Assembly: GCA_026874595.1 (NCBI GenBank)
Contig: CM049306.1
Span: 14,901,019-14,965,018, forward strand
DNA: 64,000 bases
Reading direction: 5' to 3'
Source of the DNA: Sipunculus nudus
Lineage: Eukaryota > Annelida > Sipuncula > Golfingiida > Sipunculidae
Positions 4,310 to 57,001 of the stretch are shown here, in pieces; position 1 is the first letter of the stretch; the number at the start of each line of letters is the position of its first letter. The translations under genes were made by a program, and so were the position numbers. A model generated the notes under the pieces. It was not told the DNA's origin, ran no database searches, and worked only from the letters and a program-made list of their open reading frames with translations.

Positions 4310-5870
4310 TACTAGATGTGTCAGAACGACACGAATGCCCCCGCCTGGGGCAAATTAGAAACATTTGTAAAATTTTGAAAAATTTTTTAAGTTCAGGAGG
4401 TGTCGTATGGTCAAAAGTAGGTCAACAAGGGCAAAATGCAAACTCGATCTGTAACGGGTCATTATCAAGCAACACACCAAAAATCATGCCAGTATATGCA
4501 GGCATTTTAAAAAAAAGTCCATACATGTGCATTTTCCATAAAAATTTCTGTCTTTCATGAAATTTTTTATGTTTAGGAGCCGTAAAACAATCAAAAGTAG
4601 GTCAACCAGGACGAAACGCGAACTCGATCTGTAACTGTCATTATCTGCCCACACATAAAAAATCAGGGTGGTATCTGCAGGCCTTGAGGAGAAAAGTCAG
4701 TACATATGCATTTGTTATGAAAATTTCTATTTTTCATGAAACTTTCTATGTTCAGGAGCAGTCAAATGGTCAAAATTAGGTCAACTGGGACAAAACAAGA
4801 ACTCGATCTGTAACTGGTCATTATCTGCCTACACACCAAAAATCAGGCCCGTATCTGCAGGCACTGCGAAAAAAAAGTCCATACATGTGCACTTTTTTAT
4901 GAAATTTTCTATGTTAGAGCACCGTCAAATGGTCAAAAGTAGGTCAACTGGGACAAAACGTGAACTCAATCTGTAACTGGTCATTATCTGCCCACACACC
5001 AAAAATCAGGCCAATATCTGCAGGTATTGTGAAGAAAAGTCTGTACAAGTGTATTTGTCATGAAAATTTATATTTAACATGAAATTTTCTATGTTCAGGA
5101 GCTGTAAAACAATCAAAAGTAGGTCAACTGGGACGAAACGCGAACTAGATCTGTAACTGGTCAATATCTGCCCACACACCAAAAATCAGGCCAATATCTG
5201 CAGGCATTGCGAAGAAAAGTCTGTACAAGTGTATTTGTCTCGAAAATTTATATTTAACATGAAATTTTCTATGTTCAGGAGCTGTAAAACAATCAAAAGT
5301 AGGTCAACTTGGACGAAACGCGAACTTGATCCGTAACTGGTCAATATCTGCCCACACACCAAAAATCAGGCCAATATCTGCAGGCATTGCGAAAAAAAGT
5401 CTGTACATGTGTATTTGTCATGAAATTTCATATTTTTCATGAAATTTTCTATGTTCAGGAGCTGTAAAACGGTCAAAAGTAAGTCAACTGGGACGAAACC
5501 CGAACTCGATCTGTAACTGGTCTATATCTGCCCATACACCAAAAATCAGGCCAATATCTGCAGGCATTGCGAAAAAAAGTCCGTACATTTGTATCTGTCA
5601 TGAATATTTCTATTTTTCATGAAATTTTCTAAGTTAAGGAGCCGTAAAACAGTCAAAAGTAGGTCAACCGGGACGAAACGCAAACTCGATCTGTAACTGG
5701 TCTATATCTGCCCACACACCAAAAATCAGGCCAATATCTGCAGGCATTGTGAAAAAAAGTCCGTACAACTGTTTGATTTCGGAATGACGGAAGGACGGAA
5801 GGACAGAAGGACGGAATGACGGACATGGGTAAAACTATATGCCCCGGCCACTTTGTGGCGGGGGCATAAA
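4310..5870 (+). mobile_element. Complete pearl/HINE-like non-autonomous element (family P)
   Basis: The left end carries the hairpin GTGTC-AGAAC-GACAC (4318-4332) and then TGCCCC...GGGGCA (4336-4352). About eight tandem monomers follow, each close to 180 bp. The repeated phrase GGAGCTGTAAAAC falls near 5100 and 5280, with variants at 5460 and 5640. A GACGGAAG-type microsatellite follows (5784-5824). The right end has a 13/14-bp hairpin with arms TATGCCCC... and ...GGGGGCATA (5838-5867). This left end, tandem core, ACGG-type microsatellite and right hairpin match the published description of bivalve pearl elements, now regarded as non-autonomous Helentrons. No transposase or Rep/Helicase frame is present, so it would depend on enzymes encoded elsewhere. 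Confidence 0.85.
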
Positions 5871-5879
5871 AAACAAATT

Positions 5880-6832
5880 TAAGCTGAAAGTGGCTAGAAT
5901 TACAAGGATTCTGACCATAAAAAACAGGTCAATGTAGGTAGCGCCACAAAAACTGCAATTTCAAATACGAGTCAAGTGACTAACATTTGCACAAAATTAA
6001 GTGATCCTAGCTCCTACTGTTTCTGAGCATGACTAATTTCATTTTCCTGTAACTCTGCTAAAATTCATCAAATTATTTGAACACGCTTGAGAGAGCTGGT
6101 CTCTGGGATCATTTCTGTGAAATATTTAACCGTTTGGCTGAATGATTTCAGAGAAGAAGATTTTCCAAAGATTTTTAGCTTTTCCCCCGTAAAAAGTAAG
6201 TTAATGCAGGTGGTGCCACATAAACGCTCAATCCTACAACATTTGGTATGATAAACATTTGATAAAATTTGGGGATGCTAGCTCCTGCTATTCCTGATAA
6301 ATTATGGGTAAATGTATTGATGACCGATGACCCCTGTACAGAAAAGGTCGATGCAGGTGGCGCCACCAATACCCCAATTTTAAATATGACTCATGTGATG
6401 AACATTTGCATAAAATTTGGTGATGATAGCTCCAGCAGTTTCTCAAAATGTAATTTTAGTATCCTTTTTTGGCCAAATGACTGTTCAGCTTCCTGTGACT
6501 CAGCCAAATTCACTGAACTGGAACTATTTGATCAAACCTGAGAAAGATTGTTTCAGCTGGGATTATTTCTATAAAATATTGAATAATTTGGCCAGAAAGT
6601 TTCAGAAAAGAAGTTTTTTTAAGCTTTCTTAGCTTTTCCCTAAAAACCTTAGTAAAAGCAGATATTGAAAATATGAGCAATATCCAATAGTTTTTTAGTT
6701 GACTGATTTTTGGCATTAAGTTTGGTGATGCTGGCCCTGCCATTTTTGAGATAGTATGGGTTAATGTACAGACAACACAAGACAGACCACAGCTCATCAT
6801 CCCATAAGCTCACAGGTTCACTTAAAAAATAG
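5880..6832 (+). repeat. Family L repeat ending in AGCTCACAGGTTC
   Basis: Several imperfect units contain TTGGTGATGCTAGCTCC and CAGGTGGCGCCACC (near 6354). The 3' signature CATAAGCTCACAGGTTC lies at about 6803-6819. Four other blocks end the same way (about 19680, 19810, 20655 and 32350), so this is a real element end. Scattered open frames on both strands are not conserved between copies. Confidence 0.6.
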
Positions 6833-7690
6833 TTGGAGATCATAATAAGGTTAAGGAGAATACTGATGACATATCAAACATCTCTAACCTGAAGATATGA
6901 AAGAAGCTGATGTTACCATTAATAATTCAAAGGAACAAAAGAGGTGTAGAATTCTTTATGCTTCCAAATATGAAATATTCACTGTATCATTTATCTACAC
7001 CAGTGTATAATAACAACATCTCAGTCAAGCTCATTGTCACTGGTCTATTTGTATCTACATAATTTATAAACATGGCCAGACAAAGAACAGAACAGATACC
7101 CTTTCATGGTTTTTCCAAATGTGAATGGAATGCCACTTAGTGAAAGGAATGTTGAAAAGTAAGGATCCTATTGATGAATTGTTTGTTAAGGAAATATCCA
7201 TCATTGCTTGAAAACAAGCTAATGTAAGTTAGAGTCAACTTCCAGAGTTAAGGGGATCTAAATATTTGCTCATAAAAAGATCCACAGAATCCTGGCAAGT
7301 CTGCAATAACAGTTCACAGGTATCTGATAACACTAACAGCCTGTATTGAAATTACCATCAGTAAGGCAAATCCTGAAATATCACGGTAGTCCTATTATAG
7401 CTGTGGCTTTTACATATTATCCATAACATCCAGAAGTTTTGAATTTATCATTAATGGTTCTGTATATTATTTATTGTGCAAATAATACTAATTGAAAATT
7501 AGAAAGGAGAGAAGTTAAAATTCTCATCACATCTGGGATACTGATAAGTATCAATTTATCTGCATTCACCTGATTCATCTAAAGATCCCACTGCAATAAA
7601 ATCTGCATTAATTGTGCTGATGGCTATTCTAAACAAAGTTAAAAATACTATCAAATATTCCTGGTTCCTCCATTTGCAGTAAACTGCCAA
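6833..7690. other. No recognised feature
   Basis: AT-rich sequence with no sustained open frame and no repeat that I can match elsewhere in the window. Confidence 0.45.
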
Positions 7691-7696
7691 TCTGAT

Positions 7697-7775
7697 GGAG
7701 TAGGACATGCATAGTGGTTAAGGCGTTGGGCTTGGGAGCTGAAGTGAAGGTCCCTGGTACTAATCCAACTGAAGC
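7697..7775 (+). repeat. tRNA-like SINE head or tRNA pseudogene
   Basis: ATAGTGGTTAAGGCGTTGGGCTTGGGAG matches the D-arm/anticodon region of a tRNA with a long-arm (Leu/Ser-like) A box. CTGGTACTAATCC sits at the B-box position with mismatches to GGTTCGAATCC. The acceptor stem does not pair convincingly, so this is a pseudogene or SINE remnant, not a working tRNA. Confidence 0.5.
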
Positions 7776-11520: not shown

Positions 11521-11525
11521 GTACA

Positions 11526-11529
<4 letters not shown>

Positions 11530-15178: not shown

Positions 15179-15560
15179 AACAAGGCCTACAGGCCTAATG
15201 CGAACCTGTCCATTAGGAAATACACCAGGTATAATGCTTCAATGCTGGATCATTACTTTTCATGTATATGAAAAATGCAAGTACTAAACATTTTGAATAA
15301 GAAGCAATTACACATACATCACTGCTGTAATTCTCGCATGGGTGCACACAACACAAAAACAATTGTAGCTGGCACCACCAGTCTTGTATACTTCGAAGCT
15401 ATCAGAGATATACACATATGCCAATTTTCAGACTGATTTATCAAACCCCTCCTGAGAAATAAGCAGGGACACACATTGTGCAAAAATTGTTGAAGGTGGC
15501 AAAAAAAATGCTTTGTCAGTACTCAGTATAGTCATACTTGCATTATTTTATAGGCGCAAT
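15179..15560 (+). repeat. Family G element, copy 1 (AAGGCCTACAGGCCT start)
   Basis: Begins AACAAGGCCTACAGGCCTAATG, followed by ACACCAGGTATAATGCTTC, CTGGATCATTACTTTTCA, GCAAGTACTAAACA and a TGGCACCACCAGTCTTG module. The same order appears at 17926, 25345 and 30274. The AGGCCT...AGGCCT start is a compact palindromic module, comparable to the 5' ends of the other families. Its 3' limit is uncertain. Confidence 0.75.
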
Positions 15561-16070: not shown

Positions 16071-17536
16071 AACTAGAATACGGGTAGTCGACAAGCGACT
16101 ACGTGTATCCGCCAAAATCAGAGAAGGACGGGTGAAGTGAGGCATGGATTGAGTGGCAAGGGGATATAGAGTTACATGTGTTAAATATTAGAATGGATCT
16201 CTGCCACATAAACATGATTGTAGGTGGTGCCACCTGTTATTTGAACGAGAAACTATCCAAGATATATACACATGCAAAATTTCATGTGGAAAAGTCAAAC
16301 CACTGCAGAGATATGAGTGATTTTATCCCACAGCAGACAAACAGATGGACGCTGTGCAAAAATGGCTGCAGCTGGTGCCACCATTTTTGTTCATGTTATA
16401 AAGCTATCCAAGGGCTACATTTGTGTAAAAAAATTTTCCTGATTGGTTGAATGAGTCTGGAGATATAAGCATGGATGTCTCGTCGTGAACGTGAATGTAG
16501 GTGGCGCCACTTGTCATAAAATCAAGAAAGCTATGCGGGATGTATAAGCATGCTGAATTTCAGGTAATTTGGTCAAACCACTGCAGAGATATGAGTGATT
16601 TTAACCAAAGACAGACAAACAGATGGACGCTGTGCAAAAATGGCTGCAGGTGGCGCCACCAGTTTTTGTGTATGTTATAAAGCTATCCAAGGGCTACATT
16701 TGTGTAAATTCTTTTTCCTGATTGGTCAGACGGTTCCCGAGATATGAGCTTGGATGTCTGCAGTGTTAACGTGAATGTAGGTGGCGCCACCTGTCAAAAA
16801 TCAAGAAAGCTATCAAGGATGTATACGCATGCCGAATTTTAGGTGAATTAGTCAAACCACTGCAGAGATGTGAGTGATTTTAACCCCAGGCAGATGAACA
16901 AATGGACACTGTGCAAACATGGTTGCAGGTGGCGCCACCTTTTGTTGTGTATGTTATAAAGCTATCCCAGGGCTACATTTGTGTAAATTTTTTTTCCGGA
17001 TCGGTCAAACGGTTCCCGAGATATATGGGTTTATGTGTGGAGGGTTAACGTGAATGTAGGTGGCGCCACCTGTCATTAAATCGAGAAAGCTATCTAGGAT
17101 GTATACGCATGCCGAATTTTAGGTGAATTAGTCAAACCACTGCAGAGATATGAGTGATTTTAACCCCAGGCAGATGAACAGATGGACACTGTGCAAACAT
17201 GGTTGCAGGTGGCGCCACCTTTTGTTGTGTATGTTATAAAGCTATCCCAGGGCTACATTTGTGTAAAAAATTTTTCCGGATCGGTCAAACGGTTCCCAAG
17301 ATATATGGGTTTATGTGTGGAAACAGACGCACAAACGGACGCTTGGCAGAGACGAAAGGTCAGAGGTCAAGGTCACTTGGTTAGGCACCAGTTCACATGT
17401 GACCCGATAATTTGTGTAAGTTTCGGAAAAATCTATCCAGTAGTCTCAGAGGAGTTCTCGGGAAACGAACGCCGCGGCGGCGGCGGAACCTGGTCAAAAA
17501 CATAGTATCCGCAAAACTTCGTTTTGGCGGATACAA
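16071..17536 (+). mobile_element. Complete Helentron-like element, family V (GTATCCGCC ends)
   Basis: Begins ACTAGAATACGG, then the hairpin GTAGTCG-ACAAG-CGACTAC (16084-16102) and GTATCCGCCAAAA (16106-16118). The core is about four tandem units of 280 bp (GTGAATGTAGGTGGCGCC near 16490, 16770 and 17050). Each unit carries two copies of the palindrome GGTGGCGCCACC. A short GACGCACAAACGGACG stretch (17327-17342) and a CGG-triplet run (17470-17487) follow. The right end is a near-perfect hairpin, GTATCCGCAAAAC-TTC-GTTTTGGCGGATAC (17505-17534), whose arm repeats the left-end motif. Open frames in the core recur with the unit and are judged non-coding. Confidence 0.85.
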
Positions 17537-17925
17537 AAATTATCTGAATTTTGTTAAGATAGTAATTATAATTCTTCGTTCTCACATAGAGTTGATGTTG
17601 TGTGTGTGATAATACGCTCACAATGCCTTGATTTTAACAGTTAATTATCTGAATTTCGTTGAGATAGTAATTAATTCTTCATTCTAACATACAGCTGATG
17701 TTGCGTGTGATAAAACCCTCACAATGCCTTGATTTTGTACTGTGAAGGCTGAGCACAAAATGGAATGAGCTAAAAGCCACTCCAGTTTGCTCTCTTCACA
17801 AAGTTGACCCATTTCCTCAAACGTTCTGGCTGGCTCAAGGAAACCTGTGTAAACTCACACCATCACAGTTTGTGCAACTGCAGCCACCCGCTACACAACT
17901 ATTTGGCATTATTTAAACTATTAAC

Positions 17926-18111
17926 AAGGCCTACAGGCCTAATGCAAACCTGTGCAATGAGATTACACCAGGTATAATGCTTCAATGCTGGACCATTACT
18001 TTTCAAGAACATGTGTAACATGTGTATGAACAATGCAAGTACTAAACACCTAGAACAAGAAACAAACAATCATCACTGCTGAAATTCTAGCATGGGTGCA
18101 CACAACACAAA
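17926..18111 (+). repeat. Family G element, copy 2 (truncated)
   Basis: AACAAGGCCTACAGGCCTAATGC and the following ACACCAGGTATAATGCTTC match copy 1. The copy runs only to the CACACAACACAAAA segment, where a family V element begins at 18112. Either the G element was interrupted there or the two are a recurrent composite: copy 1 is likewise followed by a family V element about 500 bp later. Confidence 0.75.
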
Positions 18112-19510
18112 AACTAGAATACAGGTAGCCAACAAGCGACTACTTGTTTCCGCCAAAATCAGAGTGGGACAGGTGAAGTGAGGCATGGATTGAGTTGCAA
18201 GGGGAAATAGAATGAGGTGTATTGCATAATAGCCTGGATGTCTGCAGCCGAAATGTGTATGTAGGTTGCGCCACCTACCACAAAATCCAGAAAGCTGTCC
18301 AAGATGTACAAACAAGCAAAATTTTAGGCAGACAAGTCAAACCACTACTGACATATGATTGATTTTAGTCCACGGCAGACAAACAGATAGACACTGTGCA
18401 AAAATGGTGGCAGGTAGCGCCACCACCACTTTTGCCTATGATTAAGAGCTATTTGAGATCTATACACATGCAAAATTTCAGGGGGATATGTCAAACCAGT
18501 CCTGAGATATAAGCCTGAATGTCTGCAGCGTATACATAAATGTAGGTGGCGCCACCTGCCACAAAATCAAGAAAGCTATCCAAGATGTATATACATGCAA
18601 AATGTTAGCAGATAAGTCAAACCACTACTGAGATATGAGTGATTCTAGCCCATGGCAGACAAACATACAGACGCTGTGCAAAAATGGTGGCAGGTTGTGC
18701 CACCAATTTTGTATATGATTAAGAGTTATGTGAGATCTTTACACATGCAAAATTTCAAGGGATATGTCACACCAGTCCTGAGATATAAGCCTGAATGTTT
18801 GCAGCGTATACATAAATGTAGGTGGCGCCACCTGCCACAAATTCGAGAAAGCAATCCAAGATATATAAACCTGCAAAATTTTAGGCAGATATGTCAAACC
18901 ACTGCCTAGATATGAGTGATTTTATCCCACAGCACACAAACAGATTGACACTATGCAAAATTAATTGCCACTGGTTGTGCGTATGATCAAGTGCTATGTG
19001 AGATCTATAAACATGCAAAATTTTTGCCCAATCGGTCAAATGGTTCCAGAGATATGAGCTTGTATGTCTGCAGCGTAAATTTAAATGTAGGTGGCGTCAA
19101 CTGCCATAAAATCAGGAAAGCTGTCAAAGATGTATAAACCTTAAAAATTTCAGGTGGATAAGTCAAACCACTGCTGAGATGAGTGATTTTATCCCAAGGC
19201 AGATGAACAGATGGAAGTTGTGCAAAAATGGTTGCAGATGGCGCCACCAGTTTTGCGTAAGATAAAGAGCTATGGGAGATCTATAAACATGCAAAATTGT
19301 GGCCAAACTGGTCAAACGGTTCCCAAGATATGAGCTTGGATGTCTGTAGCTTAAATGTGATATAGGTGGCGCCACCTGTCATAAAATCAAGAAAGCTGTC
19401 CAAGATGTATACACATGCAAAATTTCAGGTCGATAAGTCCAACCAATGTAGAGATATGAGTGTTTTAATCCCAAGGTAGATGAACAGATGGACGCTGTGC
19501 AAAAATCTAA
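18112..19510 (+). mobile_element. Family V element, copy 2 (3' hairpin missing)
   Basis: Starts ACTAGAATACAGGTAGCC, with AAGCGACTAC and a decayed terminal motif (GTTTCCGCCAAAATC), matching the 16071 copy. The core units carry GGTGGCGCCACC at about 18546 and 18822 and again near 19367, with variants between. The sequence then passes into a family L block near 19510 without the terminal hairpin, so the right end is lost or replaced. Confidence 0.8.
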
Positions 19511-20662
19511 GAAAATGCTGTTAGAAAAAAAATAATAAATGATGACTGATTATTTGCAAAAAATTTGGTGATGCTAGCTCCTGCCATTTTCCAGATGGGA
19601 ATGGTTAACTAGAGATGACCCACGACGCACTGACGCACAATGGACGATGCAGCAACATTGCATAAGCTCACAGGATCACTAAAAATCCGATAATTCTTTA
19701 GATGACAAATCTTATGCAAAAAATTGGTGATGCTAGCTCCTGCCTTTTTTTAAATAGCTATGACAGATGACGGAAGACGGCCGACGGCACACCATTGCAT
19801 AAGCTCACAGATTCGCTAAAAATGCAAACCAAGTTTTTTCAAACAGCTGAAAGATATAGTTCCAATAATCTGGAAATTCTGCGTCTAGACACCCGCCAGA
19901 GCCAGGTCAGTTGCCATGGTGATGTCTGGACCCCACCTGGTTGTACTGAGTGACCGCTTGACTTGGCTGCTGAAACTCAGCATGTTGTCAAATCTGTTTT
20001 CAAACACAGAAAGCCTTTTCAATTGGCTACAATGCTTTTTTAAAGCTGTATTTACCCAATCTATTCTTATAAAACTGGCAGAACCCTACCACAGAATAAT
20101 TCTTGTAAAGTTTAAACCAATCACATTAACAGTTACATCATAAATAAGTGTATAAGCTAGAAGAGTTTAAAATTACATTTTCGCTTGTAAAAAACAGAAC
20201 TTCAGATATGACATATGTGATAAACATTGGTATAAAATTTTATGATTTTAGCTCTAGCTGTTTCTGAGATTTTAATTTTAGTGTGCTCTTTTAGACAGAT
20301 GACTAAGTTCAACCTCCTGTAACTCAGCCAAAAATCTCCAAACTTGAACCATTCAAACAAACTTGAGAGAGATTGTTCCAGGGATCATTTCTGTGAAATA
20401 CTGGACAATTTGGCTGGACAGTTCCGGAGAAGAAGATTTTTAAAGCTTTTTTAACTTTTTCCTTATAAAATCCAAGAAAATGCAGTTAAAAAAAAATAAA
20501 CAAAATCTGATAGAGTTTTTCAGATGACTGATTATTTGCAAAAATCTGGTGATGCTAGCTATTGCTGTTTTTGAGATAGCTATGGTTAAAGTACAGTGAT
20601 GCACAACGCACGATGTACAAGGGACAACACCGCACCATCGCATAAGCTCACAGGTTTGCTAA
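19511..20662 (+). repeat. Family L repeat block with three 3'-end signatures
   Basis: TTTGGTGATGCTAGCTCCTGCC units occur with the ending CATAAGCTCACAG near 19662, 19799 and 20642. The last two endings follow short tracts of GACGG/GACGA type. Three endings in 1 kb point to tandem or nested copies. No coding frame is conserved. Confidence 0.6.
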
Positions 20663-25344: not shown

Positions 25345-25770
25345 AACAAGGCCTACAGGCCTTATGTGAACCTGTGCAATGGGATAAAACCAGGTATAAT
25401 GCTTAATGCTGGACCATTACTTTTCAAGAACATGTGTAACATTTATATGAACAGTGCAAGTACTAAACACTTTGAACAAGAAACAGTTACACAAACATCA
25501 CTGCTGAAATTCTGGCACCACCAGTTTTGTAAACAACACAGTGATATACATATGCCAAATGTCAGACTGATATGTCAAACCCCTCCTACGTAATAAGCAG
25601 GGACATATACTGTGCAAAAATTATTGTAGGAGGCGCCACAAGTCTTGTACACGATAAAGCTACCCGACATGTATAATTATGCCTAATTTCAGGCTGATGT
25701 ATCAAATTTCTCTGTAGAAATAAGCAGGTGCATACACTGTGCAAAAGTAAATGTATGTGGCAACTTCCTT
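25345..25770 (+). repeat. Family G element, copy 3
   Basis: AACAAGGCCTACAGGCCTTATG opens the copy, followed by CAGGTATAATGCTTAATGCTGGACC and repeated modules around GGCGCCAC and CCACCAG. It runs directly into an ACTGAGTGAACTC block at about 25780, the same order as near 30.3-30.9 kb. The G core and the ACTGAGTGAACTC block may therefore belong to one larger element. Confidence 0.75.
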
Positions 25771-25779
25771 TGGGTTTGA

Positions 25780-26140
25780 TGCACTGGGCTGACCAGGCTT
25801 AGGTGAGTAAGGCAGTTGCCCCGAGTGAACTGTGACATATTGCTACCTCAAGCTACTGCACTGAGTGAACTCTTGACCTGCACCTGGTAAGACTGAGTGA
25901 ACTTTTGACCTGTACCTGGCTGCACTGAGTGAACTATTGACCTGTTGCATAATCTGACACAGTTGGCAGTCTGCCAAAGCTATAAATAGATCCAGGCTGA
26001 ATTTTGGTGCCAAATCTGATGCAGTGAGCAATCTTCCACTATAAATAGAATGCAGCTACTGCATTGAGTGAACTCTTGACCTATACCTGGCTGCACTTCT
26101 TCCAATCCTGGCACTGTGCCAAAACTATTTATAGAGCTGA
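25780..26140. repeat. ACTGAGTGAACTCTTGACCTG repeat block, copy 2
   Basis: Several tandem modules of CTGCACTGAGTGAACT plus GTCTGCCAAAGCTATAAATAGA. The preceding text (GATGCACTGGGCTGACCAGGCTTAGGTGAG, 25778) matches that at 30810, which fixes the left edge. Confidence 0.75.
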
Positions 26141-26939: not shown

Positions 26940-27187
26940 AAAACAAGAGACCCATGGGTCACTGTGCTCAGCTGAAATTGACATTGAAGTTAACAAGGGA
27001 CCCATGGGTCACGGTGCTCAGCTGTTATTGATGATCAGAAAATATGATTTGGAAGAAGGCGTAGACAAATCTTGGTTTTGTGTGGTAATATAAGCTGATT
27101 TATGAGGATGATTGCGTTTAACTCAAGTTATGTAAAAATTTTGAAAAAATCCTTTGAGAGGGAAGAGGACTGATGTCATTTATATAA
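26940..27187 (+). repeat. Doubled family A 5' end with unique tail
   Basis: Two copies of AACAAGxGACCCATGGGTCAC-GTGCTCAGCTG lie about 50 bp apart. The downstream text (AAATATGATTTGGAA ... GAGGACTGATGTC) is shared with 34790-34900, so 34.8 kb holds a headless copy of the same sequence. The palindrome CCCATGGG is intact in both copies. Confidence 0.7.
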
Positions 27188-27462
27188 TTGTATCCGCCAA
27201 ACCAGAGTTTTGCGGTTTTCAGTCCGATGCCACCTACGCTGCATAGGTTTCCAGAGAACTCTTCTTTTACCACTGGGCATAATTTTTTATAATTCGGAAT
27301 TTTGATCAGATCACATGTAAACTGCTGCGCCCTCATTTTTGGTTGACCTCTGACCTTTCCTCTCTGCCCATTTTTCATTTGTTCATCTGTTTCCACACAT
27401 AAACCCACATATCTCCGGAACTGTTTGAAGGATCAGGCTAAAAATTTTGCATAGCCCTATAC
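27188..27462 (-). repeat. 3' part of a family V element, reverse orientation
   Basis: Read on the minus strand, this stretch ends in a decayed version of the family V hairpin (GTATCCGCCAAAC on the plus strand at 27190). It contains the same ATATCTCxGGAACxGTTT and TTTCCACACATAAACCCA text as 17280-17330. It is cut at about 27462, just before a family A 5' end. Confidence 0.75.
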
Positions 27463-27466
27463 AAAC

Positions 27467-29490
27467 ACTAACAAGTGACCTGTGGGTCATGACGCTCAGC
27501 CGACTGACATGTTGACAATATGTCCTTGCACAGACAACTAAATAAGGTAATGTAGGTGGCATCATTGTTCATGCATATTAGCTTAAGTTCATCAAGACCC
27601 ATAAGCACAACAAATCTGATGACAAACCAATCAGCCTTTCATGAGGAATCTGGCAATTTGTGTGTATTTTGCATTATTTCTAGGGTGCTCAAACATACCC
27701 CAAAATTCTGAGAATATAGTTCACTGTGACCCAATTTCAGGTTTCTAAAACTCTCAGGATGTCAAGTTAGAAGATTCTGGGCCCAAAGGTTATGATTTGG
27801 GCCCTACTTTGGTTTCAAATTTTCAATTATTCTGAGGGGTGCTTATATTTATAAGCCCCATAGCTTAGAAAATATGAGTAACGGAGACCTAAATACACGT
27901 TTCCAAGGAGATTTTCAAAAAAACTCGATGATGAATATCACTGCACAGAATCATGGTGATCAATGCATCAGTTGTTCAGATACTTGAGCTTTCGTATCAA
28001 ATTTTTTATAATTCTGGGGGGGGGGGGGGGGGGGGGGGGGTTTGGAGCCCCATAGCTCAAAGAATATGGGTAACATAGACCTAATTCCAGGTTTCCAAGA
28101 AGACTTTTCATGGACCTCACTGGATGTAAAGTGAGAAGATTCCAGGTCCAGTGTTTACGATTTGTGCCCTGTTAACAGATGACGGCATCTTTGGAGGTCT
28201 CAAAAATAGAGAAAAAAATTGTAAAACATCGAAAAAATACAGGTGGTGCCACCATTGTTCAGAAACTGATGTAACACCCCATGATCAATATCCATGCAAA
28301 GAATCATGGTGATCAATGCATTAGTTGTTCAGATATTTGAGCTTTTGTATCAAATTTTTTATTATTCTGGGGGGGGGGAAGGGGTACTTCGGAGCCCTAT
28401 AGTTTGAAGAATTTGGGTAACAGAGACCTAATTCTAGTTTTTTAAAGGAGACTTTTCATAGACCTAACTGGATGTAAAGTGAAAAGATTCCAGGTCCAGT
28501 GTTTACGATTTGTGCCCTGTAAACAGATGACGGCATCTTTTAAGGTCTCAAAATAGAGAAAAAAATTCGTTAAAAAAAATAAAAAAAATACAGTGGCGCC
28601 ACCAGTCTGCAGAAACTGATAAAACACTCCATGATCAATATCCATGCAAAGAATCATGGTGATCAATGCATTAGTTGTTCAGATACTTGAGCTTTTGTAT
28701 CAAATTTTTCATTATTTTTTTTTGGGGGGGGGGGGGGGGGTTTGGAGCCCCATAGCTTGAAGAATATGGGTAACAGAGATATAATTCCAGGTTTCCAAGG
28801 AGACTTTTCATGGACCTAACTGGATGTAAAGTGAGAAGATTCCAGGTCTAGCGTTTATGATTTGTGCCCTGTTAACAGGTGACAGAATCTTTTAAGGTCT
28901 CAAAATAGAGAAAAAAAATCGTTAAAAAATCGAAAAAATACAGGTGGCACCACCAGTCTGCAGAAACTGATAAACACTTCATGATCAATATCCATGCAAA
29001 AAATCATGGTGATCAATGCATTAGTTGTTCAGATACTTGAGTCTCTGTATCAAATCAAATTTTGCATTCTTCTGGGGGGTTTCGGAGCCCCATCGCTCGT
29101 AGAATATGGGTCACATAGACCTAATTCCAGGTTTCCAAGAAGACCTTTCAGGGACCTCTCTGGATGTAAAGTGTGAAGATTCCATGTCCAGCAGTTACAA
29201 TTTGTGACCTGTTAACAGATGACGGCATCTTTGGAGGTCTCAAAAATAGAGAAAAAAATCGTAAAAAGTCGAAAAAATACAGGTGGTGCCACCAGTGTTC
29301 AGAAACTGATGTAACAACCCATGATCAATATCTATGCAAAAATTCATGGTGATCAATGCATTAGTTGTTGCATCAGATACTTGAGCTTTTGTATCAAATT
29401 TTTCATTATTCTGGGGGGGTTTCGGAGCCCCATAGCTCGAAGAATATGGGTAACATAGCCCTTATTCCAGGTTTCCAAGAAGACTTTTAT
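27467..29490 (+). mobile_element. Family A element with poly-G-bearing monomers (3' end lost)
   Basis: AACAAGTGACCTGTGGGTCATGACGCTCAGCCGACT opens the element. About five monomers of 340-355 bp follow; homologous positions are the ATTCTGGGG stretches near 28012, 28366, 28720, 29068 and 29408. Every monomer has a G run in the same place, from 6 up to about 24 bases long. Between them lie TTTGGAGCCCCATAGCTC, AATATGGGTAACA, GATTCCAGGTCCAG and CAGGTGGxxCCACCAG. The array stops at 29490, where a reversed family V fragment begins, so the terminal hairpin is missing. Confidence 0.8.
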
Positions 29491-30008
29491 CTCAGTAGTG
29501 GTTTGACTTATCTGCCTAAAATTTTGCATGTTTATACATCTTGGATAGCTTTCTCGATTTTGTGGCAGGTGGCGCCACCTACACTTATGTTTACGCTGCA
29601 GACATTCAGGCTTATATTTCATGACTGGTTTGACATATCCTATTGAAATTTTGCATGTGTATAGATCTCTCATAGCTCTTAACCATACATAAAACTGGTG
29701 GTGCCACCTGCCACCAATTTTTGCACAGGGTCCTTCTGTTTGTCTGCTGTGGGATAAATCACTCATATACAAGTAGTGGTTTGACTTATCTGCTAACATT
29801 TTGCATATGTATACAACTTGGATAGCTTTCTGGATTTTTTGCTAAGTCGCGCCACCTACATACACATTTCGACTGCAGACATCGATGCTAATATGCAACA
29901 CACCTCACTCTTTTTCCCCTTGCCACTCAATCCATGCTTCACTTCACCCGTCCCACTCTGATTTCGGGGGATACACATAGTCGCTTGTCAACTACCTGTA
30001 TTCTGGTT
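29491..30008 (-). repeat. 5' part of a family V element, reverse orientation, nested
   Basis: Read on the minus strand, the element starts at about 30008 with ACCAGAATACAGGTAG, then AAGCGACTA and the GATxxCCCGAAATCAGAG region, and continues leftwards through GGTGGCGCCACC modules (29568). It is broken at 29491 against the family A array. The junction is abrupt, inside a monomer, consistent with insertion followed by deletion. Confidence 0.75.
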
Positions 30009-30090
30009 TACATTTTGAAAAGAAGTTTTATTTTCACACATGTTTTGACTTGGCCTAATGACTTTATCTACATTGCAGCAGAAGTATTTG

Positions 30091-30270
30091 AAACAAGTGA
30101 CCCATGGGTCATGACGCTCCGCTGACTGGGAAGAGATTCAGAAAAGGATATTTTATCATCTGAATGGTAGTATATATACCCATTCAACTTAACCATCAAA
30201 CAGATTAACCAACAGGCCAAGATTGTGTCTGTATTTATATATCTCAAAAATAGAGAAAAAATGCGTAAAC
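30091..30270 (+). repeat. Family A 5' end, fragment
   Basis: AAACAAGTGACCCATGGGTCATGACGCTCCGCTGACTGG, with the palindrome at 30097-30112 nearly perfect. The following TTTTATCATCTGAATG...CCATTCAA matches the sequence after the 2587 copy. A remnant of the CTCAAAAATAGAGAAAA core phrase precedes family G at 30274. Confidence 0.7.
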
Positions 30271-30273
30271 TTT

Positions 30274-30810
30274 AAACACAGCCTACAGGCCTAATGCGAA
30301 CATGTGCATTGGGAAATACACCAGGTATAATGCTTCAATGCTGGACCATTACTTTTCATATATATGAAAGATGCAAGTACTAAACATTTTGAATAAGAAA
30401 CAATTACACAAACATCACTGCTGAAATTCTGGCATGGGTGCACACAACACACAATTGGTTGTAGCTGGCACCACCAGTCTTGAATACAACAAAGCTATCA
30501 GAGATATACATATGCCCAATTTCAGACTGATATATCAAACCCCTCCTGAAAAAATAAGCAGGGACACACACTTTGCAAAAATTATTGTAGGTGGCACTAC
30601 CAGTCTTGTAAACGACAAAGCTATTCCATATGTATATATATGCCCAATTTCAGGCTGATATATCAAATTCCTCTGTAGAAATAAGCAGGCACATTCACTG
30701 TGCAAAAGTCATTGTAGGTGGTGACACCTGTCTTGTGAACGAGAAAGCCATCAAAGACACATAGACAGGTCAAAATATCAGGCAAATACATCAAACTTAC
30801 CTTGAGTCTG
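30274..30810 (+). repeat. Family G element, copy 4
   Basis: AGCCTACAGGCCTAATGCG starts the copy and ACACCAGGTATAATGCTTC follows. Three core modules, each with GTAG(G/C)TGGCxxxACCAGTCTTG or a variant, are spaced by 125-140 bp. The copy flows into the ACTGAGTGAACTC block. Confidence 0.75.
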
Positions 30811-31240
30811 ATGCATGGGGCTGACCAGGCTTAGGTGAGAAAGGCAGTTGCCCTGAGTGAACTGTGACAAATTTGCTGGCTCAGGCTACTGCACTGAGTG
30901 AACTCATGACCTGCACCTGGCTAGACTGAGGGAACTTTTGTTCTGCACCTGGCTGCACTGAGTGAACTCTTGACCTGTTGCATAATCTGACATAGTTGGT
31001 AGTCTGCACAAGCTATAAATAGATCCAGGCTGAACTTTGGTGCCAAATCTGATGCAGTGGGCAGTCTGCCAACGCTATAAATTGAATGCAGCTACCGCAC
31101 TGAGTGAACTCCTGACCCATACCTGGCTGCACTGAGTGAACTCTTGACCTGTTGCCTAATCTGATACAGTTGGCAGTCTGCCAAAGCTAAAAATAGATCC
31201 AGACTGACCTCTAGCCTGTTGCCATATCTGAAATAGGAGC
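30811..31240. repeat. ACTGAGTGAACTCTTGACCTG repeat block, copy 3
   Basis: The same tandem modules as at 25780, with GCTATAAATAGATCCAGG or near copies several times. Its right edge meets CACACCATTGCATAAGCTCA, a family L-type terminus. Confidence 0.75.
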
Positions 31241-31261
31241 CACACCATTGCATAAGCTCAT

Positions 31262-31352
31262 GCAGGGGCCCTGCCCTGAGGGGCATGACACCGATGAGGT
31301 GATCACATGGTGCCCATGAGGTGTTCACATGTCACCCATGAGGTGATCATAT
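31262..31352. repeat. Short 22-bp tandem repeat
   Basis: CCATGAGGTGxTCACATGxx occurs three times with a 22-23 bp period, next to GCAGGGGCCCTGCC (palindromic). A small local satellite. Confidence 0.7.
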
Positions 31353-31499
31353 GCCTTGTGCTTGGCTGCACTGATTGAACTCTTGACCTTTATCGCGCTG
31401 CACTGAATGAACTCTTGATCTGTTGCCAAATCTGAAACAGCTGGCAGTTTCACAACCTATTTAAAGATACAGACACAATCTTTGCCTGTTGCTAAATCT

Positions 31500-32360
31500 G
31501 TTTTCACATACTGAAAGACTTTGGCTAAAATGCTTTTTTCTCGAAGCTGACATATTCACAAAATCTGCACTTCAAATATGAGTCATGTGACAAACATTGG
31601 CACAATGCTTGGTAATGCTAGCTTTTGTCATTTCTGAGATTACTTTGTCAGTATGCTTACTTGGCCAAATGACTGTTCAAATTTGTGTAACTCCACTAAA
31701 ATTCATCAAATGCAAACCATTTGAACAAACTTGAGAGAACTTGCCTCTGGGTTCATTTCTGTAAAATATTGAACAATTTGGCTGGACTGTTAACAAGAAG
31801 AAGACATTTAAAAGTTTTTCAGCTTTATCCCTATAAAATCTAAGTAAACTGCAGATAGCAAAAAAAATAAGCTGAATCCTACAACATTTGATATGTGACA
31901 GATTATTGCATAAAATCTGGGGATGGTAGCTCCTGCTATTCCTGAGAAATGATGAGTTAATGTACAGATGACCAATGACCCCCGTACAAAAAAAGGTCAA
32001 TGCAGGTGGCACCACTAATACCTGAATTTCATATATGACTCATGTGACCAAGACTGGCATAAATTTGGTGATGATAGCTCCAGCCAATATTGGACAATTT
32101 GGCTGAACAGTTTCAGAGAAAAAGATTTTTAAAGCTTGTTTAGCTTTTTCCCTATAAAATCTATGAAAATGCAGTAAGCCAAAAAATAAGCAAAATCCAA
32201 TAAAGTTTTTTAGAAGACTAATTTTTTGCATAAAATTTTGTGATGCTAACTCTTGCCGTTTTCAAGATAGTGTTGGTTAACGTACAGATGACGGACAACG
32301 GACGACAGACGCTGGGTGACGCCACACCATTGCATAAGCTCACAGGTTCGCTAAAAAATA
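31500..32360 (+). repeat. Family L repeat with intact 3' end
   Basis: Tandem units contain TGGTGATGCTAGCTTTTG, GACTGTTCAAATTTGTGTAACTC and TTTTTCCCTATAAAATCTA. The end is GACGGACAACGGACGACAGACG (32288-32309), then CACCATTGCATAAGCTCACAGGTTCGCTAAAAA. As in families P and A, an ACGG-like tract precedes the terminus, which suggests a common mechanism. Confidence 0.7.
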
Positions 32361-34710
32361 CAGGTGGCTTCACCAGTGTGCAGAAACTGATAAAAACACT
32401 TAATGGTCAATAACCATGCAAAGAATCATCGTGATCTCTGCATAAGTTGTTCAGATACTTCAGCTTTTGTATCAAATTTTCCATTATTCTGAGGGATACT
32501 TTGGAGTCCTATAGCTTGAAGGATATGGGTAACAGAGACCTAATTTTAGGTTTCCACAGACACTTTTCATCGGTCTCCTTGCATGACATGAATGAAGATT
32601 CTAGGTCCAATTGTTACAATTTGTGCCACGTTAACAGATGACAGCATCCTTAAAGGTCTCAAATATAGAGAAAAAAATTTGAAAAAATTTGAAATAAAAA
32701 TAAATGTGGCGCATCCAGTCTGCAGAAACTGATGGAACACCTCATGATCAATATGTATGCCAAAAATCATGACCATCAGTGTTGTAGATACTGAGATACT
32801 GCAGTTTTTGTATCAAATTTTTCATTATTCTGGGGGGTATTTTGGAGCCATACAGCTTAAAGGTAATGGGTAACAGAGGCCTAATTTCAGGTTTCCATGG
32901 AGATTTTTCATGGGTCTCCCTGTGTGTCAAGAATGAAGATTCTAGGTCCAGTCTTTATGATTTATGCCCTGTAAACAGATGTTCACTTTTTAAAAGTCTC
33001 AAAAATAGAGAAAAAAATTCGTAAAAAATTGAAAAATACAGGTGGCACCACCAGTCTGCAGAAACTAATGAAAACACTAAATGGTAAATATCCATGCAAA
33101 GAATCATGGTGATCTCTGCATTAGTTGTTCAGATACTTCAGTTTTTGTATCAAATTTTCCATTATTCTTAGGGATACTTTGCAGTCCTTTAGCTTGAAGG
33201 ATATGGGTAACAGAGACCTAATTTCAGGTTTCCACAGACACTTTTTATGGGCCTCCTTGCATGACAAGAATGAAGATTCTAGGTCCAGCTGTTACAATTT
33301 GTGCCATGTTAACAGATGACAGCATCCTTAAAGGTCTAAAAAATGGAGGAAAAAATTCGAAAAATTGAATAAAATATAGGCGGCACCACCAGTCTGCAGA
33401 AACTGATGAAACACTCCATAATCAATATCCATGCAAAGAATCATGGTGATGTCTGCATTAGTTGTTCAGATATTTCAACTTTTGTATCAAATTGTCCATT
33501 ATTCTGAGGGATACTTCCGAGTCCTATAGCTTGAAGGATATGGGAAACAGAGACCTAATTTCAGTTTCCACAGACACCTTTCATGGGCCTCCTTGCATGA
33601 CAAGCATGAAGATTCTAGGTCCAGTTGTTATGATTTGTACCCTGTTGACAGATAACCACATCTTTAAAGGTCTCAAAAATAGAGAAAAAAATTCGTAAAA
33701 ATTTGAAAAAAAATAGAGGTGGTGCACCCAGTCTGCAAAAACTGATGGAACACCTCATGATCAATATGTATGCCAAAAATCATGACCATCAGTGTTGTAG
33801 TTAATGAGATATTGAAGTTTTTGTATGAAATTTTTTACTATTCTGGGGTGTACTATGGGGCCCCATAGCTCAAAGGAAATGGGTAACAGAGACCTAATTT
33901 CAGGTTTCCATGGAGACTTTTCATAGGTCTCTCAGTGTGTCAAGAATAAAGATTCTAGGTCCAGTCTTTATGATTTGTGCCCTGTTAACAGATGTTCACA
34001 TTTTTAAAGGTCTCAAAAATAGAGAAAAAATTCTTTAAAAAAACCTGAACAAACACAGGTGGTGCCACCAGTCTGCAGAAACTGATGAAACACTCCATGA
34101 TCAATATCCATGCAAACAATTATGGCAATCCCTGCATTAGTTGTTCAGATATTCCAGCTTTGGATCAAATTTTCCATTATTCTTAGCTGTACTTTGGAGT
34201 GCCATAGCTCAAAGGATATGGGTAACAGAGACCTTATTTTAAGTTTCCATGGAGACTTTTCATAGGTCTCTCACTGTGTGAAGAATGAAGATTCTAGGTC
34301 CAGTCTTTACGATTTGTGCCCTGTTAACAGAAGTTCACATTTTTAAAGGTCTCAAAAATAGGGAAAACAAATCGTAAAAAATTGAAAAATACAGGTGGCG
34401 CCACCAGTCTGCAGAAACTGATGAAACATCTCATGATCAATATTTATGCCAAAAATCATGACCATCAGTGATGTAGTTAATGAGATATTGAAGTTTTTGT
34501 ATGACATTTTTTATTATTCTGGGGTGTACTTTGGGGCCCCATACCTCAAAGGATATGGGTAACAGAGACCTAATTTCTAGTTTCCATGGACATTTTTCAT
34601 AGGTCTCTCAGAATGTCATGTTACAAGATTCTAGGTCCAGCGGTTACAATTTGTGCCAGGTTAGCGGACAGACGGACAGACAGACGGACAGACAGCATTT
34701 GCACAAATGA
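32361..34710 (+). repeat. 340-bp satellite-like array with two monomer types (family A core)
   Basis: Seven monomers are anchored by GTCTGCAGAAACTGAT (first copy GTGTGCAGAAACTGAT, near 32376). They differ at the position after CATGCAAAGAATCAT. Type A has GGTGATCTCTGCATTAGTTG and type B has GACCATCAGTGTTGTAG. The order is A, B, A, A, B, A, B. The array ends in GGACAGACGGACAGACAGACG (34674-34700), the microsatellite position, but no hairpin follows. Some 60-80 codon open frames recur with the period and are not genes. Confidence 0.8.
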
Positions 34711-34779
34711 CAGGAGCGTTTAACTATTTTATTAAAAATTAATTGCAATTATTGAGCCAAATCTAACTTTAATTAATAT

Positions 34780-51440: not shown

Positions 51441-51442
51441 GT

Positions 51443-52690: not shown

Positions 52691-52691
52691 G

Positions 52692-54230: not shown

Positions 54231-54234
54231 CTAA

Positions 54235-54581
54235 AGTCCGTTCCACAACCCATTCTCCCCCTTTTTTGGAAATTATTATTTTTTTTGCAAGTAAAAAAAC
54301 GACAACACTTTTTGCCTCTAGGACAGAAAGAAAGAAAATGTTAAATTATTTATGTTGGATATATTAGCCTACCTTGTGTCATTTTCTTGTAAACAATTTA
54401 AAACCATTTTATGAGAAGCTATTTCGTGGCGACATCTTACCACCAATCTATGAAATGAGCATGTCAGGGAACAGTGATGACGTCATAATACACGTTGCGC
54501 ACACAAACTATGCATACATATTTGCGGGACCAATAATCAAGAGCCGCCGACCCCTGTTTACAGTGAGACTTTTATTCCCCT

Positions 54582-54585
<4 letters not shown>
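54235..54585 (+). repeat. Dispersed repeat with CRE core, copy 3
   Basis: Same module order as copies 1 and 2: AGTCCGTTCCAC, GTAAACAATTTAAAACCATTTTATGAG, GACATCTTACCACCAATCTATGA, GTGATGACGTCATAATA (CRE at 54478-54485), ACCAATAATCAAGAGC and GACCCCTGTTTACAG. The tail module (CCACCAGACCGTTAAG, near 54644) is separated by a (TA)n run. Confidence 0.75.
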
Positions 54586-54620
<35 letters not shown>

Positions 54621-54674
54621 AGACCACCGATATATATGAGGCATGTCCACCAGACCGTTAAGTGACTATACATG

Positions 54675-54742
<68 letters not shown>
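54586..54742. repeat. Two (TA)n microsatellites
   Basis: TA runs at about 54586-54612 and 54677-54742, with the repeat's tail module between them. Confidence 0.95.
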
Positions 54743-54744
<2 letters not shown>

Positions 54745-54815
54745 TAAGCAGGTACGGTACCAAAAATGAGTTTGTTTTTTTAATTTACAATATTACTTAT
54801 GAAATAAATTTTCAG

Positions 54816-54964
54816 ATCATCTCGTAAATGGGCTATTTAAAAATCGATTAGACTTTGATGTGGATCCGGCTGATGGTCCAGATTCAAGAAGGACTTCCAG
54901 GAATATTCATAATAACCAGTCAGATATGCTCGATTGGACATGTGGATATGGGCCGAATAAATGA
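54816..54964 (+). CDS. Candidate last or internal exon, phase-compatible with 14.95 and 46.85 kb
   Basis: An acceptor, AAATTTTCAG (ending 54815), is followed in phase 1 by 48 open codons. They begin HLVNGLFKNRLDFDVDPADG, continue with an RRTSRN segment and a SDMLDWTCGYG segment, and stop at TGA 54962-54964. Joined to the exons at 14947 and 46849, the model gives 402 coding bases (133 residues) with no frame break. The Asp/Asn/Ser-rich character matches the first exon. In P2X7-C-terminal-like proteins a W-C-x-C-G motif follows the PYxFEP region, and D-W-x-C-G here is reminiscent of it. A +1 frame continues open to 55094 (...GRINECKHLLG..., ...MGCGLPRIKDCPNGGG...), so the stop could reflect a frameshift. 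AATAAA overlaps the stop (54956-54961). Confidence 0.4.
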
Positions 54965-55094
54965 ATGCAAGCACTTGTTGGGGATCATATTCACCAATAA
55001 ACCTAGGAATATGGACCAACCAGTGTATGAAAACATGGGGTGCGGATTACCCCGCATTAAGGACTGTCCCAATGGTGGAGGCCTGCATTCATGA

Positions 55095-55420
55095 CAATGT
55101 ACATTTCTAGTTATCATTGACATTTTAAAGAATGAACACGCTTACAAGCACATCTCTTGATCTGACAACAAAATCAATATCAGCCAAATGGCTCACAAAA
55201 TAATGTACCACAATCATCTAAAATACTCACAATAACGTGTTCAAGACATGTTTAAAGAAAGACAGAAAAGTCAATAAATTTCATAAACCATACACATAGT
55301 AAAAAATGTTGAAAATGTGAAACATCTGCATATAAACTTGCAACTTGCCTATAAATCGTTCTCATTTAGAAGCATATATAGATTGTAGATGAAAAAAAAC
55401 AGAGAATTTACTTCACCTGG
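55095..55420. other. No recognised feature
   Basis: AT-rich spacer before a complete family A element. Confidence 0.5.
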
Positions 55421-55421
55421 T

Positions 55422-57001
55422 AACAAGTGACCGATGGCTCATGACGCTCAGCCGACTGGCATGTTTACAATAGGTGGCATCAAAGTTCATGCACATTAGC
55501 TGAAGTTCATCAAGACCTGTAAGCACATCAAATTTGATGACGATCCATCCAGCTGACCTGAGGAATCTGGCAATTTGTGTGTATTTTACATTATTTCTGG
55601 GATGCTCAAACATGGGCTGTAACTCAGATAATATAGGTCACAGTGACCTCAATTCAGGTTTCTGAGGAGAACTTATGAGGAACTCTCAGGATGTCACGTA
55701 AAAAGATTCTAGGTCAAATGGTTATGATTTGTGGCCTGCCTGGTATCAAATTTTCAATTATTCTGAGGGGTGCTTATAAGCCCCATAGCTTGGAGAATAT
55801 GGGTAATAGAGACCTAATTTCATGTTTCAAAGAAGTTTTCATTGACCTCCCTGGATGTCAAGTAAGAAGATTCTAGGTCCAGTCATTACGATTTGTGCCC
55901 TGTTAACAGATGATGACATCTTTAAAGGTCTCAAAAATAGAGAAAAAAAATTGTGAAAAATGAAAAATACAGGCACCAAAAGTCTGCAAAAACTGATGAA
56001 ACACTCCTTGACCAATATCCATGCAAAGAATCATGGTGATTCATGCATTAGATGTTCAGATACTTGAGCTTTTGTATCAAATTTTGCATTATGCTGGGGG
56101 ATACTTCGAAGTCCTTATAGCTCTGAGATTTTGGGTAACAGAAACCTAATTTTAAGTTTCCAAGGAGACTATTCATGGGCCACGTTGCATGTCAAGCTAA
56201 CAAATTCTAGGTCCAGGTGTTACGATTTGTGCTCTGTTATCAGATGATCGCGTCTTTTAAAGTCTCAAAAATACAGAAAAAAATCGTTAAAAAATCGAAA
56301 AAGTATAGGTGGCGCCACCAGTCTGCAGAAACTGATGAAACACTCCATGATCAATATCCATGCAAATAATCATGTTGATCAATGCAATAGTTGTTCAGAT
56401 ACTTGAGTCTTTGTATCAAATTTTCCATTATTCTGGGGGGTACTTCAGAGCCCTATAGTTCAAAGAATATGGGTAACAGAGACCTATTTCCAGGTTTCCA
56501 AGGAGGCTTTTCACGGGCCTCCCTGCATGTCAAGATAGAAGCTTCTAGGTCCAGTCGTTACGATTAGTGCCCTGTTAAGAGATGATCGCATCTTTTAAGG
56601 TCTCAAAAATACAGAAAAAAATCGTTAAAATAATCGAAAAAAAACAGGTGGCGCCACTAGTCTGCAGAAACTGATGAAACAATCCATGAACGATATCCAT
56701 GCAAAGAATCATGGTGTTCAATGCATTAGTTGTTCAGTCACTTGAGTTTTTGTATCAAATTTTCCAGTATTCTGGAGGTTATTTCAGAGCCCCATAGATC
56801 GAAGAATATGGGTAACAGAGACCTATTTCTAGGTTTCCATGGAGACTTTTCATGGGCCTCCCTGCATGTCTAGATAAAAAATTCTAGGTCCAGTCGTTAC
56901 CATTTGTGCCCTGTTAACGGAAAGACGACCAGACGGCCGGACGGACGACGGACAAAGAGTGATTGCTTAAGCTCAGATGACTTATAGTCAGCTGAGCTAA
57001 A
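55422..57001 (+). mobile_element. Complete Helentron-like family A element
   Basis: The left end is AACAAGTGACCGATGGCTCATGACGCTCAGCCGACTGG, a mildly decayed GTGACCCATGGGTCAC palindrome followed by GCTCAGCxGACT. About 3.5 tandem monomers of 335-340 bp follow; CTAGGTCCAG falls near 55876, 56206, 56545 and 56884. Two monomers carry GGTGGCGCCAC (about 56310 and 56648). A GACGACCAGACGGCCGGACGGACGACGG microsatellite (about 56924-56951) follows. The right end is the hairpin AGCTCAG-TGACTTATAGTCA-GCTGAGCT (56970-56998). The left-end GCTCAGCTGACT consensus is the inverse of AGTCAGCTGAGC in this hairpin. No protein is encoded. Confidence 0.85.

Follow-up and report, generated by a model that had tools for sequence, protein, structure and literature searches.

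Four probable HINE families in Sipunculus nudus and the placing of a tandem core behind foreign ends by nesting

A 64-kb stretch of the Sipunculus nudus genome (positions 14901019-14965018 of contig C1, referred to below as the window) contains four families of repeats, P, V, A, and G, in which tandem cores are enclosed by ends built on a similar plan. The question raised by this locus is what kind of elements these families are, and how their cores came to be associated with their ends. According to a previous reading based on the letters of the window alone (the sequence-only reading), unrelated cores may be freely swapped between end sets sharing one terminal design. Upon searching the whole assembly (1.43 Gb, 153 contigs), we conclude that P, V, A, and G are in all likelihood four families of HINEs, i.e., non-coding rolling-circle elements of the Helentron type with tandem cores, and that a core can gain new ends by nesting. 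This identification is based on the paired subterminal inverted repeats (subTIRs), the 3' palindrome followed by CTAG or CTTG, the T-rich insertion sites, the empty sites of V and P, the variable number of core units, and the existence of near-identical copies. The Helentron or HINE identity suggested previously was thus borne out by the structure, the insertion sites, and the paralogous empty sites. All 38 open reading frames of at least 90 aa listed in the window were scanned and none scored above the Pfam cut-off, which indicates a lack of coding capacity, as in HINEs.

The common terminal plan was confirmed as such, an inverted motif being present in each of the four families (weakly so in G), while the previous labeling of the 5' and 3' ends proved to be the reverse of the Helentron convention. 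After reverse complementing, the order is as follows: a T-run, the 5' subTIR, a short tract, the tandem core, the 3' subTIR, a palindrome, CTAG or CTTG, and T. The complete V element (16072..17534, minus strand), identified by its end pair and showing the same plan in 20 genome loci, carries the subTIR GTATCCGCCAAAA, a core of Va/Vb dimers, the hairpin GTAGTCG/CGACTAC, and CTAG; read in the Helentron orientation, it begins with TT, GTATCCGCCAAAAC, a loop, and GTTTTGCGGATAC, and continues with the core, the subTIR, the GTAGTCG hairpin, CTAG, and T. The order in P, A, and G is the same, apart from the 5' inverted repeat, which was not found in the short piece of G that was folded. The P element (4311..5868, minus strand; end pair and folding), the end and core of which occur together in 30 genome loci including this copy, shows a T-run and the ATGCCCCCGCC subTIR with its inverted repeat on the 5868 side, a GTCC-like tract, a tandem core of ~180-bp units, the 3' subTIR, the palindrome GTGTC/GACAC, and CTAG at 4312-4315. 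The complete A element (55422..57001, minus strand; end pair and folding) consists of the GCTCAGCTGACT subTIR with its inverted repeat, an ACGG-like tract, a ~339-bp core, a palindrome remnant, and CTTG. In the plain G element (30275..32354, minus strand; end pair), an AGGCCT palindrome, the G core, a core of 32-bp units, a ~420-bp T core, a short ACGG tract, and the CACAGGTTCGC subTIR were recognized. P and A show a clear ACGG-like tract, as previously assigned to the core design; that of G is short, and that of V consists of a few units.

The pairing of the ends was assessed from the best inverted match between two 70-nt ends in comparison with 2000 shuffles. This match covers 11/11 positions in P (3/2000 shuffles as good), 14/14 in V (0/2000), and 11/12 in A (17/2000). 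Upon folding the ends and comparing them with 200 shuffles, both ends of P and both ends of V were found to be strong (0 to 9/200 as good), as was one end of the A copy at 55422 (7/200), the other end of which was not (105/200; z 0.10), although the palindrome is kept in other A copies. The inverted repeat beside the 5' subTIR folds in P (z -4.11), V (z -2.05), and A (z -2.30), and the 3' palindrome in P (z -4.26) and V (z -2.55). The evidence is least favorable to the plan in G, where the inverted match is weak (10/11; 48/2000 shuffles as good), one end folds weakly (23/200; z -1.31), and no structure was detected in the other, only 16 nt of which were folded. The 3' closing letters are CTAG in P and V, CTTG in A and G, and CTGG in the V copy at 30007. 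The starts ACTAGA and AACAAG, which had been noted for P and V and for A and G, respectively, are not enriched in the window as bare hexamers (16 observed vs 27 expected, and 51 vs 55, respectively) and are meaningful only at the mapped ends. The canonical Helitron 5' TC is not present, since V starts with (TT)GTATCC and P with (T)ATGCCC. The combination of 3' CTRR, hairpin, and A^T target typical of the Helitron1 type fits V; P ends with CTAG but lies in T runs, and A and G end with CTTG.

The V and P loci were chosen on the basis of the near-identity of one end, which favors close relatives, and divergent copies could therefore differ from those described here. Of 522 candidates for the V end, 40 matches were listed, all at 100%, and 20 of these 40 were examined in long form; the P end gave 41 listed matches (488 candidates), and 30 loci were examined, one of which is the window's own copy. 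The 5' flank of V has TT before the element and T at -5 in 18/18 cases and A at -3 in 15/18; in L052 and L057, the first V end was not found by the script, and L052 carries a short remnant. TT follows CTAG in all 20 V loci, the first T lying inside the query and the second outside it. The V target can be written TWA^TT, the net addition being the element plus 2 nt. Empty sites for V were found for L046 (92% identity), L053 (80%), and L059 (66%, weak), with two extra T in each case, and for P in the case of L042 (99% identity, two extra T) and L033 (three extra T). Two P elements, at L043 and L036, are inserted in an A core; the L036 insertion is inexact and lies in an A run. Flanks and empty sites alike indicate that V and P insert into T-rich targets.

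Empty sites are also available within the window for V and an A variant, both of which lie within a host repeat, R, and for a plain G element inserted in an A core, with agreement to within ~6 nt; the insertion sites of A and G are represented by one window site each. Some of these comparisons speak less clearly for precise insertion: the empty site of the A variant is not exact, nor is that of P at L021, and the four comparators available for V at L050 show small gaps. Since the ends of V and P match paralogous empty sites, the objection that the termini might miss the insertion boundaries does not apply to V, to P, or to the single G copy tested. If TT is counted as part of the element, V fits the proto-Helentron type, with 5' TT, 3' CTAG, and insertion at A^T.

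Tandem monomers of ~126-340 bp in variable copy numbers might also be ordinary satellite DNA, the ends being those of miniature inverted-repeat transposable elements (MITEs) moved by a cut-and-paste transposase. The extreme ends carry no inverted repeats, however, the palindrome is one-sided and the end is CTAG, and no target duplication was detected in V or P beyond a possible TT, a 2-nt duplication being indistinguishable from a TT borne by the element itself. We take this explanation to be very improbable.

The association between ends and cores was then followed in the genome copies. The V end is present in 20/20 V loci, the opposite V end in 19/20, and the V core in 19/20, the core being absent at L052; no foreign core was found between V ends in the 20 loci. 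The number of dimers ranges from 0 to 7, and the monomers are all in one orientation. The opposite V end, which lies outside the query, shows a median pairwise identity of 98.3% among 18 copies (minimum 56.7); the spread of the V family is thus recent. In each of the 30 P loci, the P end and the P core lie side by side. Ends and cores therefore normally travel together, and the free swapping proposed in the sequence-only reading is contradicted by V ends having a V core or none (20/20) and P ends having a P core (30/30). The idea that a core may occur under more than one end set was nevertheless correct in one respect: the V core is present behind a G end in all eight copies examined of one composite family. 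G ends thus occur with the G core alone and also with the V core, and it is not the case that end modules are never found with more than one core.

The cores themselves are not all unrelated. The monomers measure 149 + 130 bp in the V dimer, ~126 bp in G, ~338 bp in A, and 180 bp in P, and the V and A monomers share a 12-bp palindrome, GGTGGCGCCACC (an example is located at 16780..16791), which is present once per monomer in the V and A cores. Allowing at most one mismatch, 25 sites were counted in the window vs 0.02 expected: 15 in the V core, nine in the A core, and one at 6356 in a G-like stretch, P having none; in the G core monomers, the palindrome is present only at two mismatches. Searched for as a string in the printed literature, it was matched only in a paper on an endochitinase. 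Once the palindrome was removed, Va and G were still similar (z 10.8), as were Vb and G (z 6.4), with 0/500 shuffles as good in each case, and Va, Vb, and G were all found to be homologous (0/500 for every one of the three pairs). When the palindrome was included, the G monomers were detected with a profile built from 71 Va monomers, and the V profile without it recovered 6/6 G monomers (E 1.1e-7 to 0.033). Since the V and G monomers are homologous without the palindrome, these two cores can be called neither different nor unrelated, as had been proposed. That description stands for P, the core of which showed no clear similarity to those of V, G, and A in pairwise comparisons. The A core may be weakly related to that of V: the likeness between Va and A is weak in a free comparison (31/500 shuffles as good), reaches z 4.2 when anchored beyond the palindrome (0/300), and yields a single A unit (E 0.46) with the V profile lacking the palindrome. 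No likeness between Vb and A or between G and A was detected when the comparison was anchored beyond the palindrome.

These similarities might mean that ends and cores diverged together from one ancestor, the V/G likeness being due to whole-element descent without any exchange of cores. The V and G monomers indeed have the palindrome and the order in common, and A weakly so with Va; part of one end is alike in A and G (1/1000 shuffles as good), and group 1 of the oyster Cg_HINEs is described as having diverged in this way (PMC7492417, in the sections consulted, to which all our statements on this paper refer). The V and G ends are dissimilar, however (1000/1000 and 605/1000 shuffles as good), although the cores are similar; the likeness between P and A (7/1000) and between V and P (16/1000) is marginal and includes the T-run and, in the case of P/A, also the microsatellite. 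Nor can divergence of this kind account for a V element with its own ends inside G. It is a possible explanation, to which we give somewhat less than even chances.

The case in point is the composite G element at 17923..20662 (minus strand), the right limit of which is uncertain. It encloses a nested V (18113..19506, minus strand) with a V terminus at 18113 and a V core, the other V end being missing. With the G end at 17923 as the query (849 candidates), 39 relatives other than the query itself were listed at 99-100%, and eight of these were examined. In all eight, the V core lies behind the G end; seven have the V terminus fused to G at one and the same position, and the 15-nt flanks on the G-end side differ in all eight. 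The far junction, where the V end passes into the G core, was found in two (L068 and L071). Four loci were also taken over a greater length. L073 (= L068) shows the order G end, V end, V core, V end, G core, 32-bp core, T core, and G end, and L075 (= L064), which contains a nested P element too, also reaches a G end, so that two of the four longer stretches have a G end on either side. The uninterrupted form of the V-in-G site is represented by the plain G copies at 15179 (15179..15502, minus strand; a truncated G end and G core) and 30275, and the filled site gains ~2 nt, counted by eye. At positions 2216-4081 of L075, a P end, P core, and P end lie within the T core of the G::V composite and are themselves interrupted, which adds a third layer of nesting.

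V was therefore nested in G and the composite amplified. A single V insertion appears to have been copied along with its G host, a conclusion resting mainly on the common junction with differing flanks, as read from the sequences. A Helentron Rep/Helicase would nick the 5' end, replicate one strand through the core, and stop at the 3' hairpin; an element landing in the A/T-rich interior of another might thus be copied together with it from the outer ends, after which decay of the buried ends would follow. Several observations weigh against so simple an account. A G end is reached in L076 (= L066), which seems, however, to comprise more than one element, and in L074 (= L070), the V terminus is lost and a second G end was not found within 5 kb. 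The G loci were picked by their similarity to the composite's own end and thus do not measure the share of composites among G copies. Twelve states separate the nested V from 19 free V; 10 of these are also present in the older window V at 30007 and hence mark an older V subfamily, which leaves only two that are private to the nested copies.

One of the eight relatives, L067, is also at odds with nesting alone. On one side it has retained the G end and the G|V junction; on the other it closes, after TTATTT as at a V insertion site, with an intact, young-type V end, which lies in a flank other than G. Positions 1501-2750 of this locus are hybrid, most of the left part being nearer to the composites and the sequence from ~2349 onward nearer to free V, as judged in 65-nt steps. 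This locus could result from recombination between V arrays or from copying from a V end through to a G end. Unequal exchange between V arrays might more generally join composites to free V, so that array recombination, rather than nesting alone, would move cores and ends. This is only one locus, however, in which the switch was judged by best identities, and the common G|V junction of the other copies is left unexplained; we consider this general explanation rather unlikely.

Whether the buried V end behaves differently from its surroundings was examined in eight composite copies (seven loci and the window), L070 being excluded because it lacks this stretch. Variable columns amount to 27/60 at the buried V end (first 60 nt) vs 21/120 in the adjacent G (nt 71-190, a stretch not covered by the query) and 11/59 in the adjacent V (p 0.00015 and p 0.003, respectively; pooled test, p 5.5e-5). 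A change from G to A at position 19 of the hairpin stem is present in 8/8 nested copies and absent from at least 90% of the 19 free V, as well as from the older window V; in L067, a second change makes the stem pair again. This variation is suggestive of the loss of an inner terminator; such a loss is not proven, because the copies are related to one another and CpG explains part of the effect. When the columns with CpG in any copy were dropped, the contrast was reduced to 17/48 vs 19/118 and 11/59 (p 0.012 and 0.076), and the relatedness of the copies likewise weakens it. The excess may thus be due only to CpG decay or relaxed constraint, without any selection for a broken inner terminator, the buried end being CpG-rich. 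The adjacent buried V varies at only 11/59 columns, however, although it would be equally unconstrained if both parts were dead, and the change at position 19 is common to all the nested copies. The chances of this explanation seem to us to be about even.

We tentatively propose, as a possibility at well below even chances, that terminator traps are formed by nested HINEs, a composite spreading from its outer ends only once the inner 3' terminator has been weakened. The buried V end would then be driven to change faster than its neighbors while the satellite core passes to the outer family. Cores might thus cross incompatible end sets without any recombination between ends, and composites might record the replication stops of Helentrons.

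The candidates for the enzyme mobilizing these families are numerous. At least 143 matches to Helitron_like_N were obtained in the genome (150 of 195 candidates scored) vs none in 14 control genomes, and seven of them lie in open reading frames 2,229 to 2,426 aa long. The frame at L080 combines DUF6570, an OTU protease domain, and Helitron_like_N, and carries the motif IEFQARGSPHAH with S; this Helentron-type motif (RGSPH) is common to L079, L080, and L081, while L078 has the Helitron form, RGLPH. Neither the RGSPH- nor the RGLPH-type motif was found in L077. Since S in this Rep motif is described as diagnostic of Helentrons in the sections consulted of the study by Thomas et al. (PMC4067079), Helentron and Helitron lineages appear to coexist in this genome. 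Two results do not favor assigning the families to these genes: no match was found at E 0.01 between the library of end and core modules and seven Rep-related stretches (the five loci L077-L081 and two flanks), and around the intact Rep element at L080, neither a module nor a convincing end was detected in 5.2 kb of flanks. The four families might be moved by several autonomous partners, the shared plan being what any Helentron-like replicase needs. The subTIRs differ between families, the end letters are split between CTAG (P, V) and CTTG (A, G), and the Helitron_like_N matches include both motif types, but a partner was linked to none of the families in the stretches examined. We regard the odds on several partners, as opposed to the single Rep/Helicase system suggested in the sequence-only reading, as evenly balanced. 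Upstream of a Helentron-type Rep, L082 (C11:50386900-50389400) contains ~1.2 kb of ~69-bp tandem units, the nearer part of which lies in the Rep's own open frame, where it encodes a 23-aa repeat.

The design of these elements has already been published in bivalves. The Cg_HINEs of Crassostrea gigas have an 11-12 bp subTIR, a complementary inverted repeat after a short spacer, a microsatellite (GTCY in several), a satellite-like tandem core, and a 3' subTIR with a palindrome, and they insert preferentially at TT without a target-site duplication (TSD), as do the elements studied here (PMC7492417). Related flanks with unrelated cores are likewise known from group 2 of the Cg_HINEs (PMC7492417). 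Each core cluster in the oyster is consistently associated with one flank pair (PMC7492417), whereas here the V core also occurs behind G ends as the result of nesting. The gain of 2 nt at TWA^TT and the 3' end letters are described here, and none are given for Cg_HINE in the sections consulted (PMC7492417). The autonomous elements of the oyster could not be tied to its HINEs either (PMC7492417). By their description, pearl, DTC84, and MgE of bivalves also have short satellite-like core arrays between flanks (PMC7492417; PMC5139131, consulted in part).

Outside the bivalves, DINE-1 and HINE-Mo resemble the present families in their subTIRs, 3' palindrome, T-rich target without a clear TSD, and variable number of terminal T, according to the same sections of Thomas et al. 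(PMC4067079); two subfamilies of HINE-Mo were tied to autonomous Helentrons (84-99.9% identity; PMC4067079), whereas none were tied here. The 5' TT, 3' CTAG, and A/T insertion of proto-Helentron-Pi of Phytophthora infestans fit V, and P has CTAG; proto-Helentron-Pi is autonomous and its plan is called Helitron-like, however, whereas V and P add subTIRs and a 5' inverted repeat (PMC4067079). Self-insertion was proposed for nested or composite Helitrons with multiple termini in the case of FoHeli of Fusarium (PMC5148889, consulted in part). The FoHelis have duplicated 5' ends (PMC5148889), whereas two families are involved here, the composite has been amplified, and the buried end is more variable than its neighbors. 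How arrays move between HINE families is still an open question in the oyster, where recombination, junction fragments, or a cut-and-replace process have been suggested (PMC7492417). An amplified composite, accompanied in the window by plain G copies, provides a concrete route for the transfer of satellite arrays between HINE families, and this nested core transfer, together with the hint of a buried terminator, is the part of our findings worth keeping. Should the excess at the buried terminator be upheld by a larger sample, it would constitute sequence evidence about where Helentron replication stops, a mechanism requiring biochemical work according to Thomas et al. (PMC4067079).

The other elements of the window show further nesting. 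A V element in the opposite orientation (27190..30006, plus strand) lies in the host repeat R, a copy of which provides its empty site, and is split by an A element (27470..29487, minus strand), the far end of which is lost and the junctions of which were read from the sequence. An A variant (30092..34721, minus strand) is also inserted in R, with the empty site mentioned above, and holds the nested G element at 30275..32354, the A core units serving as the empty site of the latter. The repeat R itself, which took both the V and the A-variant insertions, is located at 34778-34992 and at 27031-27177 plus 30015-30092; the stretch serving as the empty site of V is the R copy at 34795-35010. A truncated plain G end with the G core and the 32-bp-unit core is located at 25345..26126 (minus strand). 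With the A end as a query (267 candidates), the 40 rows listed were the window copy at 55422 and 39 others at 93% over 54-55 nt. Two A termini stand 50 bp apart at 26942 and 26992, where one element was apparently inserted at the very end of its own kind, and two P termini stand back to back at positions 1430-1570 of locus L018, apparently as the result of a similar insertion. The box pattern AGGTGGCGCCACCWGTC gave five matches in viral contigs, which were taken to be likely due to chance. A 314-aa open frame on the minus strand (61833-62774), for which no Pfam family was found at E 0.1 and PDB matches were weak (best E 0.043), is perhaps a host exon. At 223-1015, three 268-bp tandem units with 99% matches look much younger than the HINE cores.

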